Source: Deltaproteobacteria bacterium (GTDB lineage: Bacteria > Myxococcota_A > Polyangia > Polyangiales > JADJMO01). From it: DNA of 64,000 nucleotides. The notes under the pieces were generated by a model. It had not been told where the DNA came from, searched no databases, and saw only the letters and a program-made list of their open reading frames with translations. The translations under genes were made by a program, and so were the position numbers. The stretch spans positions 1-64,000 of the forward strand of contig JANYDK010000093.1 in assembly GCA_025363655.1 (NCBI GenBank), in the 5' to 3' direction. Below, in pieces: positions 1 through 32,789 of the stretch (positions are counted from its first letter, which is position 1; every line of letters begins with the position of its first letter).

Positions 1-2728
1 TCAGCGTGAGGACGTGCACCTTGGTGCGGAGCTGCTTGATGCGCTCTTTGTGGGTGACGCCGAAGCGCTGCTCTTCGTCGACGACGAGGAGCCCGAGGTT
101 CTTGAAATGCAGGTCCTTCGAGAGCAGGCGATGGGTCCCGACGACGATGTCGAGGCTGCCCTCTTTGAGGCGACGAAGGACGTCGTTCTGCTCTTTCGTG
201 TCCTGGAATCGCGACATCGCGCCGATGGTGATCGGGTACTCGGCGAGGCGCTGTTTGAACGTGAGATAGTGCTGTTGCGCGAGCACCGTCGTCGGGCAGA
301 GGACGGCGACCTGCCGACCGGCGCTGGCGGCGCGGAAAGCGGCGCGAATCGCCACCTCGGTCTTGCCGAAACCGACGTCGCCGCAGACGAGGCGATCCAT
401 CGGACGCGGGGTCTCGAGATCGCCGAGGACGTCTTCGATGGCCTTCGCTTGATCGACGGTCTCCTCGAACTGGAACGTGGCCTCGAACTCGCGGTAGTCG
501 TCGTCGCGCGGAGGGAGCGGTTCGCCGACCTCTGCCTGGCGCTCGGCGTAGAGGCGAAGGAGCTCGTCGGCCATCTGTTTGACGGCTTTTTCGACGCGCG
601 ATTTCGATTTGGCGAAGGTCGAGCCGCCGAGCTTGTCGACCCGGATCGTCGTCGCCTCGCCGCCCGAGTACTTTTGGATTTGATTGAGCCGGTAGACGGG
701 GAGATAGAGGCGATCGCCCCCGCCGTACTCGACGACGATCAAATCGACGCGCGTCTTCGGTTGATGGAGCTTGCCGTCGGCGTCGACGATGGCGGGGCCG
801 AGGATGTCGCGGTGCTCGAGGCCGAGGTACTTGCCGATGCCGTGCTCGGCGTGGACGACGAGATCGCCGACCGAGAGGGCGCGGAGATCTTCGATGAAAG
901 GACGAGCGGCGTCGCGGGCCTTCTCGCTGCGTGACGTCCGTCGCTTGGCGCGCGCGCCGAAGATCTCTTCTTCGGTGACGAAGGCGAGGCGCTCGGTCGG
1001 GAGAATGGCGCCGCCGCCGAGCGAGCCGACGACGACCTCGACGTGATCGCGCGCGAACGCCGGATTTTCGAGGAGCGTCGGATCGAAGCGCCCGAGGCGA
1101 GCCTTGACGTCGACGTCGTGACCACGAAGGAGAGAGACGAGACGTTCGGCCTGCGTCGTCGCGCGCGCAGTGAGGAGCACGCGCATGCCGTGCTCGCGAA
1201 AGACCCGAAGACGACGGACGAGTGGATCGAGCGCGCCGCGTTTGCCGATGGCGGCTCGAGCTTGTTTCACCGCGCGTGCAAGATCTCCTTGGTCGCGGGC
1301 CGCGAGGGTCGGCAAATCTTCCGGCGCGCGCTCGTAGTCGCCGAGCGGTGACTCGTCGTCGGTTGCGCCTTCGACGGCGATACGGTGCACCACGAGGACG
1401 CGGGCGTCGGAGATGCGCGCGGCGACGTCGGCTTCGTCGAGGTAGTGCGCGCTGCGGGGAAAATGGGGCTTTCCGACGGGGGCGTCGTCGTCTTCGGCGC
1501 GCGCCAGCTCGTCACGGAGCGCGCTGGCGATGGCGATTGGATCGTCGAGGACGAAGGCCGAGTCGTCTGGCAAGTAGCGGAGGATCGGGTCGAGCGCGCC
1601 GTGGTACGCGGGGAGGAAGCCGTCGGCGCCGAAGAAAGAGCGACCTTGCGCGACGTCCTCGGCGAGCTGGCGAGCCTTCGCCGTCGGGGTGTTCACCGCA
1701 TCGCATAGCTCGGCTATGGATTTGCGTGCGCGCTCGATCGACGCGGCGTCGAGGATCGCTTCGCGCGCCGGCGGGAGGTGCAGGACCTGGATGGCGCCGA
1801 GCGTGCGCTGCCCGTCGGGGTCGAAGCGCTTCATCGAGAGCACGAGATCGCCGTAGAGCTCGATGCGTACCGGCGTCGGCGACGAAGGCGGCCAGACGTC
1901 GAGGAGCGCGCCGCGGACGGCGAACGAACCGGGATCTTCCACGACCGGCACGCGGAGATATCCGGTTTCCGAGAGGCGACTGACGAGCAGCTCGCGATCG
2001 AGCTCGCCCTCGGCCTCGATGGTCTCGGTGCGTGCCTCGAGCGTGGCGCGCGGCACGGTACGTCGGACGAGCGCGCCGGCGGTGATCACGAGGACCCGCA
2101 GCTCGGCGTCTTTGCGTGCGGCGCGGGCGAGGTGTGAGAGCGTGGCGAGCCGGGCGAGCGCGCCGCGACGATCGGGCGCGACGTCGGCGTAGGGGCTCTG
2201 TTCGGGTGCCGAGAGAAGGAGCACCTCGCCGACGCCGACGTCCTCTGCCTCTTCGGCCGAGACGTCGTCGACGTCGCCCTCGTCCGGTTTGCCCTTCTTG
2301 CTCACCTTGCGGTGGGGGACGAAGAACTCGAGATCGGAGACGAGGGCCCGTGCGCGCTCGACATCGGCGGTGACGACGATGACCGGACGACCGAGCTGCG
2401 CGGCGATGCGTGCGACGAGGAGGGGCAAGGCAGCGCCCGGCGCGGCGGCGAGATCGACGCGCCCCGGCGCCTTCTCACGAACACGCGCGACCACGTCTTC
2501 GACGGAGAGGACGACCCGACCGTCGGGGAGGGCGAGCGGATCGTCGATCGGATCGAGCGCGTCTTCTTCCGCGCGACGCTGCGCCTCGAGCTCGCCGCCG
2601 AGCAATCGGGCGTCGACGTCGGTCAGTTCTTTCAGCGAAGCGCGCAGCTCGGGGGAGGACACGGACGAGGTGGCGAATCGCGGGAAATTGCCGAGAAACT
2701 CGGCCGATTCGGGCGCCGACAGAAGCAC
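1..2728 (-). CDS. mfd: Transcription-repair coupling factor Mfd (3' end outside window)
   Basis: Mfd is a superfamily 2 DNA translocase. It removes RNA polymerase stalled at lesions and recruits UvrA. The minus strand reads through without a stop to base 1. It carries the UvrB-like N-terminal region, the RNA-polymerase-interaction region (VGDLVVHAEHGIGKYLGLE), then the helicase core: Walker A in MDRLVCGDVGFGKTEVA at about 350-400, a TTVLAQQH motif, and the DEEQRFG Walker B/DExx region near 75-95. About 909 codons are present; the C-terminal helicase lobe is missing because the window starts inside the gene. The start is uncertain. The GTG at 2728 is used because an AGGG lies just upstream and the conserved part begins soon after; a GTG at 2836 is also in frame. 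The neighbour at 2923 is divergent. Confidence 0.93.
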   Translation of the reverse strand, partial: MLLSAPESAEFLGNFPRFATSSVSSPELRASLKELTDVDARLLGGELEAQRRAEEDALDPIDDPLALPDGRVVLSVEDVVARVREKAPGRVDLAAAPGAALPLLVARIAAQLGRPVIVVTADVERARALVSDLEFFVPHRKVSKKGKPDEGDVDDVSAEEAEDVGVGEVLLLSAPEQSPYADVAPDRRGALARLATLSHLARAARKDAELRVLVITAGALVRRTVPRATLEARTETIEAEGELDRELLVSRLSETGYLRVPVVEDPGSFAVRGALLDVWPPSSPTPVRIELYGDLVLSMKRFDPDGQRTLGAIQVLHLPPAREAILDAASIERARKSIAELCDAVNTPTAKARQLAEDVAQGRSFFGADGFLPAYHGALDPILRYLPDDSAFVLDDPIAIASALRDELARAEDDDAPVGKPHFPRSAHYLDEADVAARISDARVLVVHRIAVEGATDDESPLGDYERAPEDLPTLAARDQGDLARAVKQARAAIGKRGALDPLVRRLRVFREHGMRVLLTARATTQAERLVSLLRGHDVDVKARLGRFDPTLLENPAFARDHVEVVVGSLGGGAILPTERLAFVTEEEIFGARAKRRTSRSEKARDAARPFIEDLRALSVGDLVVHAEHGIGKYLGLEHRDILGPAIVDADGKLHQPKTRVDLIVVEYGGGDRLYLPVYRLNQIQKYSGGEATTIRVDKLGGSTFAKSKSRVEKAVKQMADELLRLYAERQAEVGEPLPPRDDDYREFEATFQFEETVDQAKAIEDVLGDLETPRPMDRLVCGDVGFGKTEVAIRAAFRAASAGRQVAVLCPTTVLAQQHYLTFKQRLAEYPITIGAMSRFQDTKEQNDVLRRLKEGSLDIVVGTHRLLSKDLHFKNLGLLVVDEEQRFGVTHKERIKQLRTKVHVLTL

Positions 2729-2922
2729 GGACCCTGTTCGGGAGCAACGCCGCTGGGCGCCGTGCCAACGCGGGTCTCCCGCTGCTCCCGCCGGAACGCG
2801 CGCGTCTCGACGGAAAAATGCGCGGAAACGTCCCACCCTCTCGCACTTGTTTGCTGGGCGAAGTGCCGAACGCAGCGAACAATCAGAGAACTTAGGCTCA
2901 CATACCCCTGGGGAGGTGCCGT

Positions 2923-3486
2923 GTGGTCGACGAATTCGAGACGACGATCCGGGATCGCGATCGTGATCGGCGTTCGACGCGGCCGAGCCCGCTCGAGCGA
3001 TCGGTCGACATCCCCATCGACGAAGCGATGTTGCTCGACTCGGTGAAGATGCGCGCGACGACGACGATCCCCGACTCGGGCCCTCGCATGGAGCCGAGCT
3101 CGACGCGGCTCATGCGTGCAGAGCCGAACGCGTTCGATCCGACGGCGACGATTCGCACGGTTTCCAATCACGTGCCCTCGCGTCCACCGCCGCGCGTCTC
3201 GTCGCGTCCTCCGCCCCGCTATCCTTCGCGTGCCGCGGCGCCGCGGAATCCGTCGCGTTTTCCCCGACGGAGCACCGACGTGCCCGATCCGTCGGTCGAC
3301 GTGCCGACGAAGATTCATCAGGTCCCCGTCGAGCTCCTCTCGAAGATGCGCACCACCGCGCAACGAGTCGAGGACGATCGCGTGGCGCAGGCGTCGCAAG
3401 TGTGCGCGCGAGATCTCAGCGACACCGACGAGTGTCCGACCGCCGATCTCTCCGACGCGCAGGATCTCGAGTGGGTCGACGAGTGA
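2923..3486 (+). CDS. Hypothetical protein, Arg/Pro/Ser-rich, disordered
   Basis: The family is not recognised. The predicted product has 187 residues, is very rich in Arg, Pro, Ser and Asp, and has no signal peptide or membrane segment, so it is probably cytoplasmic and largely disordered. A low-complexity middle (SRPPPR-type repeats, residues about 85-115) separates a charged N-terminus from an acidic C-terminal tail (residues about 140-187) with two cysteines. The GTG start at 2923 is supported by a GGGAGG sequence about 7 bases upstream. The overlapping opposite-strand frames look like codon-bias shadows. The gene is divergent from mfd and convergent with the C39-like lipoprotein gene, whose stop lies 3 bases beyond this one. 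Confidence 0.6.
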   Translation: MVDEFETTIRDRDRDRRSTRPSPLERSVDIPIDEAMLLDSVKMRATTTIPDSGPRMEPSSTRLMRAEPNAFDPTATIRTVSNHVPSRPPPRVSSRPPPRYPSRAAAPRNPSRFPRRSTDVPDPSVDVPTKIHQVPVELLSKMRTTAQRVEDDRVAQASQVCARDLSDTDECPTADLSDAQDLEWVDE

Positions 3487-27979: not shown

Positions 27980-28987
27980 TCAGAATGCAGCGTCAAACGC
28001 CACCTCGCCGGTGACCCCGACCTGATACGCCGAGACGCGCCGCTCGAAGAAATTCGCCACCTCTTGCACGTTCTGCAGCTCGAGGAAGCCGAACGGGTTC
28101 TTGCTGCCGTAGCGCTTGGGAAAGCCGAGCGTGACGAGGCGTTGATCGGCGACGTGCTCGAGATACGCGCGCATGTCGGAGACCGAGAGCCCAGCGACGC
28201 CCTGCGACAGAATGTCCTCGGCGAAGGCGAGCTCGCAAGCGATGGCTTCGTCCATCATCACGTAGACGTCGGCGACGAGCGTGGCGTCGAAGAGCGTGGG
28301 CTCTTCCCGGCGCACCGCGGCGACGACTTCGAAGGCGAACGCCATGTGCGCGCTCTCGTCGCGGAAGACCCAATTGGTGCCCGCCGCGAGACCATGGAGG
28401 AGGCCCTTCGAGCGGAGAAAATAGACGTAGGCGAAGGCGGCGAAGAAGAAGAGCCCCTCGACGCAGCCGGCGAAGCAGATGAGGTTGAGGAGGAAGCGAC
28501 GACGATCGGCGACCGTCTCGAGCCGCTCGAGCGCGTGCACGCTGTCGGTGAAGCGGAAGCAGAAGTCGGCCTTGCGCCGAATCGACGGGACGTTGTCGAT
28601 GGCCGCGAACGCCCGCGCGCGCTCCCCCGGATCGGGCACATAGGTGTCGAGGAGCGTGAGGTAGAACTGCACGTGCAGCGCCTCTTCGTAGAGCTGTCGC
28701 GAGAGATACATCCGCGCCTCGGGCGCGTTCACGTGTCGATAGAGGTTGAGCACCAGGTTGTTGGCGACGATCGAGTCGCCGGTGGCGAAGAAGGCGACCA
28801 GCCGTTGCACGAGGTGACGTTCGGCGGGTGTCATCCGGCTCTGCAGGTCGACGAGGTCGGTGGCGAAGTCGACCTCCTCGACCGTCCAGGTGTTGCGGAT
28901 GGCCGCGCGATACATCTCGTAGAACACCGGATAGCGCATCGGGCGCAGCGTCAAATCGAGCCCCGGATCGAGGATGCGCCCGTTCAT
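27980..28987 (-). CDS. nrdB: Class I ribonucleotide reductase small subunit (radical subunit)
   Basis: 335 residues. The dinuclear metal ligands are all visible: Asp71 (ATGDSIVANN), Glu102 and His105 (YEEALHVQFY), Glu177 (GCVEGLFF), Glu211 and His214 (RDESAHMAF). Tyr109 follows His105 at the spacing of the E. coli radical Tyr122, so a tyrosyl-radical enzyme (class Ia-like) is expected rather than a Phe-substituted class Ic enzyme. The protein makes and stores the radical used by NrdA. ATG 28987 overlaps the nrdA stop (ATGA), so the two subunits are coupled. The ligand numbering rests on motif spacing. Confidence 0.93.
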   Translation of the reverse strand: MNGRILDPGLDLTLRPMRYPVFYEMYRAAIRNTWTVEEVDFATDLVDLQSRMTPAERHLVQRLVAFFATGDSIVANNLVLNLYRHVNAPEARMYLSRQLYEEALHVQFYLTLLDTYVPDPGERARAFAAIDNVPSIRRKADFCFRFTDSVHALERLETVADRRRFLLNLICFAGCVEGLFFFAAFAYVYFLRSKGLLHGLAAGTNWVFRDESAHMAFAFEVVAAVRREEPTLFDATLVADVYVMMDEAIACELAFAEDILSQGVAGLSVSDMRAYLEHVADQRLVTLGFPKRYGSKNPFGFLELQNVQEVANFFERRVSAYQVGVTGEVAFDAAF

Positions 28988-31416
28988 TGGCAGGCCTCGC
29001 ACGACGACGGATTCTCGAGCGAGCAGGCGATCGCAGCGCCGTCGCCTCCCGAGCTCACCGAGCTCACCGGCGCCAGTTCGTTCTCCAACGTCGTCTTGGC
29101 GATGCGCGTCGCCGGTCGCGACCGCAAGTAGTAGGTCGTCTTCAGGCCTTTTTTCCAGGCGTACATGTACATCGAGGAGAGCTGTCCGATGTTCGGGCTC
29201 TCGAGAAAGAGGTTGAGCGACTGGCTCTGATCGACGAACGGCCCGCGCTCGGCGGCGAGATCGATGAGCGCCCGCATCGGCAGCTCCCACGCGGTGCGAT
29301 AGATGCGCCGCAGCGCCTCGGGGATCTCGACGATGCCTTGAATCGAACCCTCGGCGTGACGAATGCGATTGCGAATGTCGTCGTTCCAGAGCCCGATGGC
29401 TTGCAGCTCGTTCACGAGGTGACGGTTCACCTGAAGAAAATCTCCCGAGAGCGTCTCGCGCTTCCACACATTCGAAACTTGCGGCTCGATGCACTCGTAG
29501 CAGCCGGCGATGGAGGCGATGGTCGCGGTCGGCGCGATGGCCACGAGGAGCGAGTTGCGGAGACCGTGCTCGGCGATGCGCATGCGAAGCGCCGTCCAAT
29601 CGTGACGCGTGAGAATCGGCACGCCCCACAAGTCGGGTTGCAGCTGACCGTCCGCGGCGCGCGTCTCGGCGAACGTCGGATGACGGCCTTTTCGCTGCGC
29701 CAAATCGCACGAAGCATCGAGCGCGTGGAAGTAGATGCTCTCGGCGATCTCCTGCGACACCGCCCGCGCGCGTGACGAATCGAAGGGCAGCCGCATGCGG
29801 AAAAACACGTCCTGCAGGCCCATCACCCCGAGGCCGACCGGTCGCCAACGGAGGTTGCCCTCGCGCGTCACCTCTACGGTGTAGAGGTTGAGATCGATGA
29901 CCGCGTCGAGCGCGCGGACGGCGGTGCGTACCGTCGAGGCGAGCGCGTCGTGATCGATTCGCACCGCCCCGTCGTCGGCCTCCACGAGGTGCCGCGCGAG
30001 GTTGATCGAGCCGAGGTTGCAGACGGCCGTCTCGTCCTTCGACGTCACCTCGAGGATCTCGGTGCAGAGGTTCGAGAGATGGACGGTCCGACCCTCACGC
30101 GCGGTCTGGTTGCAGGTGGCGTTCGATCGATCCTTGAACGTCATCCACCCGTTCCCCGTCTGCGCGAGCGATCGCATCATCCGCGCGTAGAGATCGCGCG
30201 CCTTCACCGTCTTCGTCGCCAGGCCTTCTTTTTCCGCTGTTTCGTAGGCAGCGTCGAAGGCCGCGCCCCAAAGATCGACGAGGTGCGGAACCTTCTTCGG
30301 ATCGAACAGCGACCACTCGCCGCCTGCTTCGACGCGTCGCATGAAGAGGTCGCACACCCAGTTGGCGAGGTTGAGGTTGTGCGTGCGCTGCGCCTCGTCG
30401 CCGGTGTTGTCGCGGAGCTCGAGGAAGGCCTCGACGTCGGCGTGCCACGGCTCGAGGTAGACGCAGCACGCGCCCTTGCGCTTGCCACCTTGGTTCACCG
30501 CGGCGACCGAGGCGTCGAGCGTCTTCAGCCAGGGGACGATCCCGTTCGACTGACCGTTGGTGCTGGCGATGAGCGACCCGCGCGAACGCACCCGATGGAA
30601 CGCGAGGCCGATGCCGCCGCTGAACTTCGAGAGCATCGCCACTTCGGTGTACGTCCGGTAAATCGCGGCCAATTCGTCGGTCGGCGAGTCGAGGAGGAAG
30701 CAGCTCGAGAGCTGCTCGTGGCGCGTGCCGGCGTTGAAGAGCGTCGGCGAGCTCGGCAGGTAGGCGAGCGACGAGAAGAGCCGGTAGAGCTCGAGCGCAT
30801 CGACGACGTTCTCCGAGAGCGCACAAGCGACGCGGAGAAAGAAGTGCTGCGGCGACTCGATGACCTCGCGCTTCTCGGGATGACGAAGGAGGTACCGGTC
30901 GTAGACCGTGCGCAGACCGAAATACTCGAAGAGCTTCGAGCGGCTCGGATCGATGGCGTCGTTGAGCTTGCGCGCGTGCGTCTGCGTGAAGGCGAGGAGC
31001 CTGTCGCCGATGAGCCCGAGCCGATGCCCGACCGCGATCGACTGGGAAAACGACTGGATTTCCTGTCCGCCGACCTCTTTGTCGATGAACGCCGACAGGA
31101 GCCGCGCCGCCAGCTTGGCGTAGGTCGGCTCCTCCGCGGTCAGCGCCGCCGCCGTCTGGATCGAGAGCTGATCGAGCTCCCGCGTGGTCGCACCGTCGTA
31201 GAGGCCGGCGATGGTCCGCGTCGCCACGCGCAAGGCGTCCACCTTCGTCAGCCCGCTACAGCAGCGACCGACGGCGCGCACGATCTTGTTCAAGTCGACC
31301 GGCTCGTAGGCCCCGCTCCGCTTGCGGACGCGCATCGAGGTTCCAGTTGTCCCGTTGGTACCGTTGGAGGTCGACGGAGGGATCGGTGACGGCTCGACGT
31401 GACGGGTGACGTTCAT
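28984..31416 (-). CDS. nrdA: Class I ribonucleotide reductase large (catalytic) subunit
   Basis: 810 residues. An ATP-cone domain at about 25-120 (allosteric activity site, MRVRKRSGAYEPVDLNKI) precedes the ten-stranded barrel. Active-site residues: Cys239 (QLSSCFLLDSP), Asn449, Cys451 and Glu453 (HLSNLCTEI), Cys466 (AVCNLGSINL), matching E. coli Cys225, Asn437, Cys439, Glu441 and Cys462. A C-terminal Cys-x2-Cys (SCEACQ) gives the external redox pair. It reduces ribonucleoside diphosphates to 2'-deoxy forms. ATG 31416 has a GAGGAAG Shine-Dalgarno. The leader carries a cobalamin riboswitch and the promoter two NrdR-type boxes. Confidence 0.96.
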   Translation of the reverse strand: MNVTRHVEPSPIPPSTSNGTNGTTGTSMRVRKRSGAYEPVDLNKIVRAVGRCCSGLTKVDALRVATRTIAGLYDGATTRELDQLSIQTAAALTAEEPTYAKLAARLLSAFIDKEVGGQEIQSFSQSIAVGHRLGLIGDRLLAFTQTHARKLNDAIDPSRSKLFEYFGLRTVYDRYLLRHPEKREVIESPQHFFLRVACALSENVVDALELYRLFSSLAYLPSSPTLFNAGTRHEQLSSCFLLDSPTDELAAIYRTYTEVAMLSKFSGGIGLAFHRVRSRGSLIASTNGQSNGIVPWLKTLDASVAAVNQGGKRKGACCVYLEPWHADVEAFLELRDNTGDEAQRTHNLNLANWVCDLFMRRVEAGGEWSLFDPKKVPHLVDLWGAAFDAAYETAEKEGLATKTVKARDLYARMMRSLAQTGNGWMTFKDRSNATCNQTAREGRTVHLSNLCTEILEVTSKDETAVCNLGSINLARHLVEADDGAVRIDHDALASTVRTAVRALDAVIDLNLYTVEVTREGNLRWRPVGLGVMGLQDVFFRMRLPFDSSRARAVSQEIAESIYFHALDASCDLAQRKGRHPTFAETRAADGQLQPDLWGVPILTRHDWTALRMRIAEHGLRNSLLVAIAPTATIASIAGCYECIEPQVSNVWKRETLSGDFLQVNRHLVNELQAIGLWNDDIRNRIRHAEGSIQGIVEIPEALRRIYRTAWELPMRALIDLAAERGPFVDQSQSLNLFLESPNIGQLSSMYMYAWKKGLKTTYYLRSRPATRIAKTTLENELAPVSSVSSGGDGAAIACSLENPSSCEACQ

Positions 31417-31629
31417 GGCTTCCTCGCGCCCGCAGCACCGGGCCGCAGGAGTGAAAAGCCGAGGAGTCGAGTAGGCAGAGCGACACGCCATCGAGCGCGA
31501 GTGCGCGAGCAAGCACGCATGCGAGCACGCGAGTCCGAGACCGACGATGGGCCACCGAGCCGACCTTCGCCCCCTCGGGCGCAGAGCCTCACGGCTCCAA
31601 GGTCGAGACCGAACGCGAACAGCCACGTT
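31417..31629 (-). promoter_or_regulatory. nrdAB 5' leader between riboswitch and start codon
   Basis: No gene is present. The minus-strand leader can pair GGCUUUU (31454-31460) with GGAAGCC (31418-31424), which would hide the Shine-Dalgarno of nrdA just before its ATG. This is a plausible expression platform for control of translation by the upstream riboswitch; no clear terminator with a U-tract is seen. Pairing was assessed by eye only. Confidence 0.4.
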
Positions 31630-31822
31630 CGGGCGCTGGCAGGTCTTCGGGCTTGCGAGCGTTTGCCGGAGATCCGGCGCTTCCTACGATCCGCCGCTTC
31701 CCGATCTCTTGCGATCAGTGCGCGTTGGCGGAGCTCGTTCTCGCGTACCGCTGCGGGGCAGCCCCGGATTCGAACCGGGTTCCCTTTTCAGCCTGCGCAG
31801 TTGCACAGGCACCAGAGCGACC
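31630..31822 (-). promoter_or_regulatory. Cobalamin (adenosylcobalamin-type) riboswitch
   Basis: On the minus strand the segment contains GGTGCC (31813-31808), then CUGAAAAGGGAA, an AACCCGG..CCGGGG hairpin and GCCCCGCA. It ends in the AGCCCGAAGACCUGCC element, which matches the AGCC-GGAGACCUGCC cobalamin box (about 31638-31654). The order is that of the B12 riboswitch class. It sits in the leader of nrdAB, 214 bases before the start codon. B12 is expected to switch nrdAB off, as described for Streptomyces nrdABS. A T-arm-like GGTTCGAATCC inside it is a riboswitch helix, not a tRNA. Confidence 0.85.
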
Positions 31823-31837
31823 CACTACATATTGTGG
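31822..31837. promoter_or_regulatory. NrdR box, proximal, over the candidate -10 region of nrdAB
   Basis: CCACTACATATTGTGG matches the palindromic NrdR consensus (acaCtAtATaTtGtGt-like). It overlaps the candidate -10 of the nrdAB promoter, so a bound repressor would block polymerase. NrdR is the ATP/dATP-responsive repressor of ribonucleotide reductase genes. Confidence 0.75.
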
Positions 31838-31855
31838 TCGAGGCGCCCTCGTCAA
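31826..31855 (-). promoter_or_regulatory. Candidate nrdAB promoter
   Basis: On the minus strand a TTGACG (-35, 31855-31850) is followed after 17-18 bases by an ATATGT/TATGTA -10 (31832-31826). The -35 is strong and the -10 weak. It lies between and within the two NrdR boxes and just upstream of the riboswitch, giving a start site near 31820. Confidence 0.5.
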
Positions 31856-31869
31856 CCCAGATGTTGTGG
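31854..31869. promoter_or_regulatory. NrdR box, distal
   Basis: AACCCAGATGTTGTGG shares the TTGTGG end and about 10 of 16 positions with the proximal box. Its centre is 32 bases away, three helical turns, the spacing known for tandem NrdR boxes. It overlaps the -35 region. Confidence 0.6.
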
Positions 31870-31901: not shown

Positions 31902-32705
31902 TCACTCCCGCTCGCAGAGGTAGCCGTAGGGGACGGTGACGCAGTCGGTGTCTCCCCAACCGACCGGCGCCGCGGTCGTCGAGATGCGGGCGCACATGCC
32001 GCTGCCGTTCGGCTCACTCGGGCGCCATCCATCGAACGTCACCGGCTCGGGCGTGACCCAGAGGTAGTCGGTCTTGAGGAAAGTGGTGGCCGTTCGTTTC
32101 AAGCCGATCCAGCAGTCGACGGCAGCCGGGGGCGACGCGGTGCTCATGCACTGGCTGATCACGAAGGTGTTCTCGGCCGCGCTGTTGATGGTGACGAGGT
32201 GCTCCTTCGCCGTCCCCGCGCACGCGCTGTTGGCGGCGATCCACGTCGCAGCGGTGGGAACGAAGCGGTAGCAGTGACCCTCGAAGGCCACTTCTTTCAA
32301 CGCTGCGTTGCAGGTCGTGGCGGTGTCGACGCCGACCTCGTGCGTGTCGGGGACGGCGCTGTCCCGCGTGTCGGCCGTGTCGGCTGCGTCGTGCGTATCG
32401 GTGCCGACGTCGACGGGCTTGGTGTCGCTCGAGTCAGCATCGGCATCGGCATCGGCATCGGCATCGGCATCGGCGAAGGCGTCCGGGTTCGAGTCCGGCA
32501 CGATCGCGTCCGCGGTCGCATCGACGCCGGTGTCATCCGGATGCGTGTCGGGCGGGTCATGGGAATCGGGGACGATGGCGTCGTCCGACGTCTCTTCCGT
32601 CGCGTCCGTCGAGCCGTCGAGGCCGTAGCCATCGTCGAGCCCGAGCACTGCGTTGCAAGCGACGAGCATCACGCTCGCGCCGAGAAATAAGGCTGCCCGA
32701 ATCAT
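31902..32705 (-). CDS. Lipoprotein with C-type-lectin-like domain
   Basis: 267 residues. The lipobox LVACNAV is followed by the motif NAVLGLDDGYG and an acidic Asp/Thr/Ala stalk that includes an (Asp-Ala) run encoded by a hexanucleotide repeat. The C-terminal domain has a C-type-lectin-like pattern: GHCYRFVPTAATW, AHLVTINS-type core, CWIGL, WGDTDC and GYLCE with the expected cysteines. It may bind glycans or proteins at the cell surface. ATG 32705 has GAGG upstream with correct spacing; ATG 32720 is also in frame but has none. Confidence 0.82.
   Translation of the reverse strand: MIRAALFLGASVMLVACNAVLGLDDGYGLDGSTDATEETSDDAIVPDSHDPPDTHPDDTGVDATADAIVPDSNPDAFADADADADADADADSSDTKPVDVGTDTHDAADTADTRDSAVPDTHEVGVDTATTCNAALKEVAFEGHCYRFVPTAATWIAANSACAGTAKEHLVTINSAAENTFVISQCMSTASPPAAVDCWIGLKRTATTFLKTDYLWVTPEPVTFDGWRPSEPNGSGMCARISTTAAPVGWGDTDCVTVPYGYLCERE
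32437..32472. repeat. Tandem GCATCG hexamer, six copies
   Basis: Six perfect copies of GCATCG inside the lectin-like lipoprotein gene encode the Asp-Ala run of the stalk. Because the unit is 6 bases, changes in copy number keep the frame and alter only stalk length. Confidence 0.9.
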
Positions 32706-32789
32706 CTCCACCCTCGACATCGGCGCGCAGCGTAGTCGCCGTTCTCGTATCGTCACGGTGGCACGCGACGAGTTCGTGCGCTGGATGGG

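Follow-up and report, generated by a model that had tools for sequence, protein, structure and literature searches.

NrdR of Streptomyces coelicolor controls both nrdABS and nrdRJ, and the control exerted by B12 on nrdABS in Streptomyces is repression. The class Ia genes nrdABS of S. coelicolor are situated behind a B12 riboswitch, with the class II enzyme NrdJ encoded elsewhere, according to the passage of PMC3293853 that cites Borovok 2006. In Propionibacterium acnes, an NrdR box overlaps the nrdAB promoter, the 5′ UTR contains a cobalamin riboswitch and nrdJ is present; its authors speculated on NrdR-controlled transcripts devoid of the riboswitch (PMC3848588). In Desulfovibrio and Desulfuromonas, nrdDG is also preceded by B12 elements, and repression by B12 was proposed for those genomes containing NrdJ (PMC545781).

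The locus examined here, in a 64-kb stretch of soil-bacterium DNA designated the window, is very probably the regulatory leader of an operon for a class I ribonucleotide reductase that needs no B12, and on which NrdR and an adenosylcobalamin (AdoCbl) riboswitch act as negative controls independently of each other. As in S. coelicolor, a class I operon lies behind a B12 riboswitch and a class II NrdJ is encoded elsewhere. With P. acnes the locus shares NrdR-box overlap with the nrdAB promoter, a 5′ UTR cobalamin riboswitch and nrdJ, although P. acnes nrdAB has one NrdR box and the window two, 32 bp apart. Desulfovibrio and Desulfuromonas, former delta-proteobacteria, likewise combine a B12-independent ribonucleotide reductase preceded by a B12 element with NrdJ in the genome; however, nrdDG codes for a class III anaerobic enzyme and the account in PMC545781 has no NrdR part, whereas the enzyme in the window belongs to class I.

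A cobalamin riboswitch precedes nrdA

A cobalamin riboswitch had been predicted in the minus-strand leader and was confirmed by a full-length match to the Rfam covariance model RF00174 (107.9 bits, E 4.5e-26, gathering score 31.5), spanning model positions 1–189 of 189 and with all core boxes intact (Table 1). The aptamer is on the same strand as nrdA and 5′ of its start at 31416, and no other Rfam match reached a gathering score anywhere in the 64-kb window. It is a class I aptamer, with AdoCbl as the likely ligand. The core of its L5 loop, CTGCCCCGCAGC, is invariant, being identical in 62/62 nrdA leaders.

The source genome (9.0 Mb, 96% complete) contains three cobalamin riboswitches in total, including that of the nrdA leader. 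The other two are followed by ORFs for predicted secreted lipoproteins: aptamer 1501–1702 by ORF 1724–3181 (485 aa frame) in L001, and aptamer 1501–1704 by ORF 1699–2592 (297 aa frame) in L003. Neither lipoprotein had a Pfam match, and the L001 protein did not have a PDB sequence match either. Similar lipoproteins are situated 3′ of riboswitches in relatives (L008, L009 and L011), and these riboswitch-linked products may be surface corrinoid-binding proteins.

Table 1. Features of the nrdAB locus, in window coordinates.
Feature	Position	Strand	Basis and remarks
NrdR box 1, CCACAACATCTGGGTT	31854..31869	-	Relatives' matrix, alignment; overlaps -35; imperfect match
-35 hexamer, TTGACG	31850..31855	-	Sequence; TTGAC conserved at same place in relatives
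NrdR box 2, CCACAATATGTAGTGG	31822..31837	-	Relatives' matrix, alignment; overlaps -10
-10, TATGTA	31831-31826	-	Inside NrdR box 2
Cobalamin riboswitch aptamer (RF00174)	31621..31831	-	First ~10 model positions overlap NrdR box 2
P5/L5 hairpin, GCTGCCCCGCAGC, kissing-loop side of aptamer	31750..31762	-	Sequence
B12 box, AGCCCGAAGACCTGCC	31638..31653	-	Rfam match and sequence
Candidate P13 module, CGACCTT (31605-31599) with AAGGTCG (31567-31561)	31561..31605	-	Minimum-energy fold; encloses accessory and L13 hairpins
Candidate L13 hairpin, CGCC[CGAGGG]GGCG	31568..31581	-	Loop complementary to L5
Hairpin possibly sequestering the Shine-Dalgarno (GGCTTTTC with GCGAGGAAGCC), plus nrdA ATG	31414..31460	-	Pair probabilities 0.34-0.95
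nrdA, large subunit of class I ribonucleotide reductase (810 aa, single ATP cone)	28984..31416	-	Family/domain searches
nrdB, small subunit of class I enzyme (Tyr at radical position; ligand motif EALHVQFY)	27980..28987	-	Family/domain searches, ORF translation

Tandem NrdR boxes cover the promoter

The tandem palindromic boxes at the nrd promoter are 32 bp apart from start to start, a spacing typical of the NrdR regulon (ca. 31–33 bp). Using an NrdR matrix trained solely on boxes from relatives, with the window excluded, the pair scored 40.8, whereas the next-best pair in the 64 kb scored 5.0 and the best of 15 Markov-1 simulated 64-kb sequences reached 11.4. The alignment of relatives shows that box 1 extends into a -35 with the sequence TTGAC, that box 2 holds a TATNTT-like -10 and that the aptamer comes directly after. 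The original prediction of two boxes 32 bases apart is upheld by the score of the pair, but these boxes do not flank the promoter, as it had proposed; instead, they cover its -35 and -10. A generic promoter scan of the window did not call the -35 TTGACG. Judging from this arrangement, the transcript should start at the 5′ edge of the aptamer, and the idea of riboswitch-free transcripts put forward for P. acnes would therefore not apply here. NrdR probably occupies the predicted boxes. Upstream of box 1, at a distance of 32 bp, is the end of a gene likewise on the minus strand (31902–32756), whose lipoprotein product carries a C-type lectin domain (PF00059).

The genome encodes NrdJ and a separate NrdR

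Gene nrdB probably starts within the end of nrdA, overlapping its stop codon, when the start is taken from the ORF translation. The prediction that the genome codes for a class II enzyme elsewhere was correct: we found one nrdJ gene (582 bits in total to TIGR02504), whose product contains the class II N-terminal domain Ribonuc_red_2_N, the barrel and a TSCPD domain. The search for nrdR, which the prediction had called for, retrieved a single copy (195.2 bits to TIGR00244) coding for a protein with Zn_ribbon_NrdR and ATP-cone domains. Unlike in the nrdRJ arrangement of S. coelicolor, nrdR is here apart from nrdJ, between recN and ribD (neighbours identified from their translations rather than by family search); additionally, no nrdS was seen, and the organism belongs to another phylum.

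Upstream of nrdJ (L078, 2600–2646) there is an NrdR-like tandem pair, CCCCAAGCCGTTGGGG and CCCCAACCGGTGGTAG, 31 bp apart, with a score of 17.7 that is weaker than that of the nrdA pair; several relatives have stronger NrdR-like pairs upstream of nrdJ (L050, L055, L065 and L070). There was no Rfam riboswitch match near nrdJ of the source genome.

The dual layout is widespread and geometrically fixed

NrdA of this type was found in 30/116 genomes of the order, and a riboswitch lies upstream of nrdA in 18 of these 30, window included. The layout of riboswitch and NrdR boxes recurs among 80 further nrdA loci taken from named genomes, among them Polyangium fumosum, Minicystis rosea, Nannocystis and Archangium, as well as two Acidobacteriota and many Lysobacterales. 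We scanned ca. 105 usable nrdA upstream regions from Myxococcota, Lysobacterales, Acidobacteriota and others with an nhmmer profile built from Rfam-positive aptamers and with the NrdR matrix. Both elements were present in 57 regions, NrdR boxes alone in 29, the riboswitch alone in 10 and neither in nine; among the regions counted, three are truncated and two assemblies are each represented by a duplicate pair. The spacing between boxes is exactly 32 bp in 47 of the 57 dual loci, and 38 of them share a single box-to-aptamer register, a count somewhat favoured by the profile, into which box 2 partly extends; the fixed layout can be read directly from the relatives' ungapped sequences. In Myxococcus and Corallococcus, the NrdR boxes and nrdJ are present but the riboswitch is absent.

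These distributions bear on the possibility, which we consider very unlikely, that the riboswitch is the sole working control and the NrdR-like boxes merely an A+T-rich promoter resembling NrdR sites. Box 1 is degenerate, promoter elements force some likeness to NrdR sites, and L022, L025 and L035 have a weak second box, with pair scores of only 0–9.4. However, the window pair is well above the maximum of the null, the palindromes are found again at 57 loci along with their 32-bp spacing, and 29 loci have kept the boxes without a riboswitch, all of which argues against this possibility.

Some individual loci depart from the general pattern. The box pair of L021, L026 and L043 is shifted one 32–33 bp step upstream, so that no good second box remains at the -10 region. 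An apparently decayed riboswitch, of which GGGACCCCGGTGTGTGCCGGGCGTGCCCCGCAGCGG is left and which has no B12 box, occurs at ca. 1330–1430 of the nrdA upstream region of L028 (genome G035), where nrdJ is present. Two records appear to be out of place: L097, titled Comamonas sp. KCTC 72670 (9 Mb genome), has an NrdA that groups with Myxococcus, and its title looks wrong, and L083, titled Nitrospira sp. MAG, has an NrdA 73% identical to that of the window, which looks odd for Nitrospira.

We found no description of dual control in myxobacteria or Lysobacterales in the literature searched, which was thin on subscription journals, including the early comparative genomics of the B12 and NrdR regulons. 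The view that this dual control is little described consequently stands for myxobacteria, within that literature, but not in general, since the layout is already known from actinobacteria (PMC3848588; PMC3293853) and is common here in other phyla. Shown here are its spread over several phyla and the loss of its riboswitch together with nrdJ.

Candidate expression platforms downstream of the aptamer

In class I corrinoid riboswitches, kissing between L5 and L13, from hairpin P13, then favours either a hairpin sequestering the ribosome binding site (RBS) or a terminator (PMC10653944). As in E. coli btuB and P. megaterium metE, which have the same aptamer family and a platform loop complementary to L5 (PMC10653944), the window leader contains a loop, CGAGGG (31577–31572), complementary to L5 CCCC(G), and the two may form a kissing loop. 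Since L5 is invariant, covariation could not serve as a test of the L5–L13 pairing.

Among 62 leaders, 95% contain a hairpin with a CGNGGG loop 3′ of the aptamer, compared with 12% of shuffled, 6% of reversed and 3% of coding control sequences, and 63% of the leaders have two such hairpins, versus 0–1% of controls. With a looser stem rule, the first hairpin appears in 54 leaders, mostly 43–55 nt after the B12 box and with 17 different closing stems, and the second in 48 leaders, mostly 115–170 nt after the B12 box and with 20 different closing stems. Leaders with twin hairpins include L020–L027, L034, L082 and L154, together with those of Lysobacterales. Most nrdA leaders examined differ from E. 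coli btuB and P. megaterium metE in carrying two such loops downstream, whereas the window leader has only one. Riboswitch-free leaders mostly do not have a CGNGGG hairpin, Stenotrophomonas keeping a few apparent remnants. We give somewhat less than an even chance to a twin platform proper to nrdA, in which a single L5 would alternate between two L13 hairpins as kissing partners, the window leader being a reduced, single-hairpin version. A two-checkpoint readout based on twin hairpins was not found in the literature searched, and the twin platform of the related leaders may be new. An alternative role of the CGNGGG loops as CsrA sites was rejected because they often do not contain GGA.

A hairpin possibly sequestering the Shine-Dalgarno of nrdA is predicted by the fold of the window leader, but it was not better than in shuffles. 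Over 36 leaders, sequestration of the RBS was only suggestive (0.31 vs 0.35 unpaired, p 0.08), being clear in a subset of them (L022, L023, L025, L082 and L099). As it is weak overall and the window is not above shuffles, we do not claim it as a conserved mechanism. No intrinsic terminator was found on the minus strand between the aptamer and nrdA, and the fold energy of the post-aptamer leader in the window is ordinary (z 0.58). Rho-dependent termination, which has been discussed for B12 riboswitches of M. tuberculosis (PMC11260477), may also operate at the nrdA leader. In addition, AGGUC from the 3′ strand of P13 can pair with GACCU of the B12 box (in L041, GGCAGGUC with GACCUGCC), forming a candidate anti-aptamer alternative.

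The aptamer might sense another corrinoid or turn nrdAB on instead of off, given that corrinoid riboswitches recognise several corrinoids (PMC9600662) and that one activating corrinoid riboswitch has been reported (PMC10653944). This is very unlikely, because the logic of the target is that of a B12-independent isozyme beside nrdJ and the same pairing is B12-controlled in Streptomyces (Borovok 2006, cited in PMC3293853).

The riboswitch co-occurs with nrdJ

Among 100 genomes, nrdJ, counted as present if over the cut-off or in part, occurred in 63/66 of those bearing the riboswitch and in 18/34 of those free of it (Fisher 8e-7). The association was maintained when corrected on the NrdA tree (p 0.001–0.003, simulating either trait), and a dependent-evolution likelihood test on this tree gave a likelihood ratio of 13.9 (p 0.008). 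The three riboswitch-bearing genomes without nrdJ (L023, L109 and L157) are either assembled from metagenomes or of uncertain completeness. Joint absences are located in separate parts of the tree, among them Stenotrophomonas, the L103/L105 pair, L031 vs L041, and L037/L038; the NrdR boxes are still there in Stenotrophomonas, L103/L105 and L031. A riboswitch that spares nrdAB when B12 can drive NrdJ is expected to be lost where nrdJ is lost, and the proposal that its presence on nrdAB is tied to the existence of a B12-dependent NrdJ is backed by this co-occurrence. Conversely, NrdJ does not require the riboswitch, as shown by the 18 riboswitch-free genomes that hold nrdJ.

It is also very unlikely that NrdR alone acts in the source organism, the riboswitch being a leftover of evolution. 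Most relatives have two CGNGGG hairpins and the window a single one, and the riboswitch has decayed or been lost in L028, Stenotrophomonas and other relatives. However, the window aptamer matches the model over its full length (107.9 bits) with its core boxes intact, nrdJ is in the genome, and genomes without nrdJ have usually lost the riboswitch.

Proposed regulation of nrdAB and its significance

Under joint control by NrdR and the riboswitch, NrdR with dATP/ATP would bind the tandem boxes when dNTPs are plentiful, cover both promoter elements and block transcription. Any transcript that is started would carry the class I AdoCbl riboswitch from approximately its first nucleotide. With abundant AdoCbl, the aptamer would close and L5 would kiss the L13 hairpin of the downstream P13 module, cutting off nrdAB expression by sequestration of the RBS and/or premature termination; the B12-dependent NrdJ encoded elsewhere would then supply the DNA precursors. 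Scarcity of B12 would release nrdAB. We infer both this direction of the response, repression of nrdAB by B12, and the level at which it is read out.

The control of class I ribonucleotide reductase by a repressor plus a riboswitch is widespread and geometrically fixed, well beyond actinobacteria. The twin CGNGGG hairpins of related leaders, if functional, would represent a new kind of riboswitch readout. Moreover, the idea of a B12-sparing isozyme becomes testable by evolution, with the riboswitch being lost together with nrdJ while the NrdR boxes usually stay.
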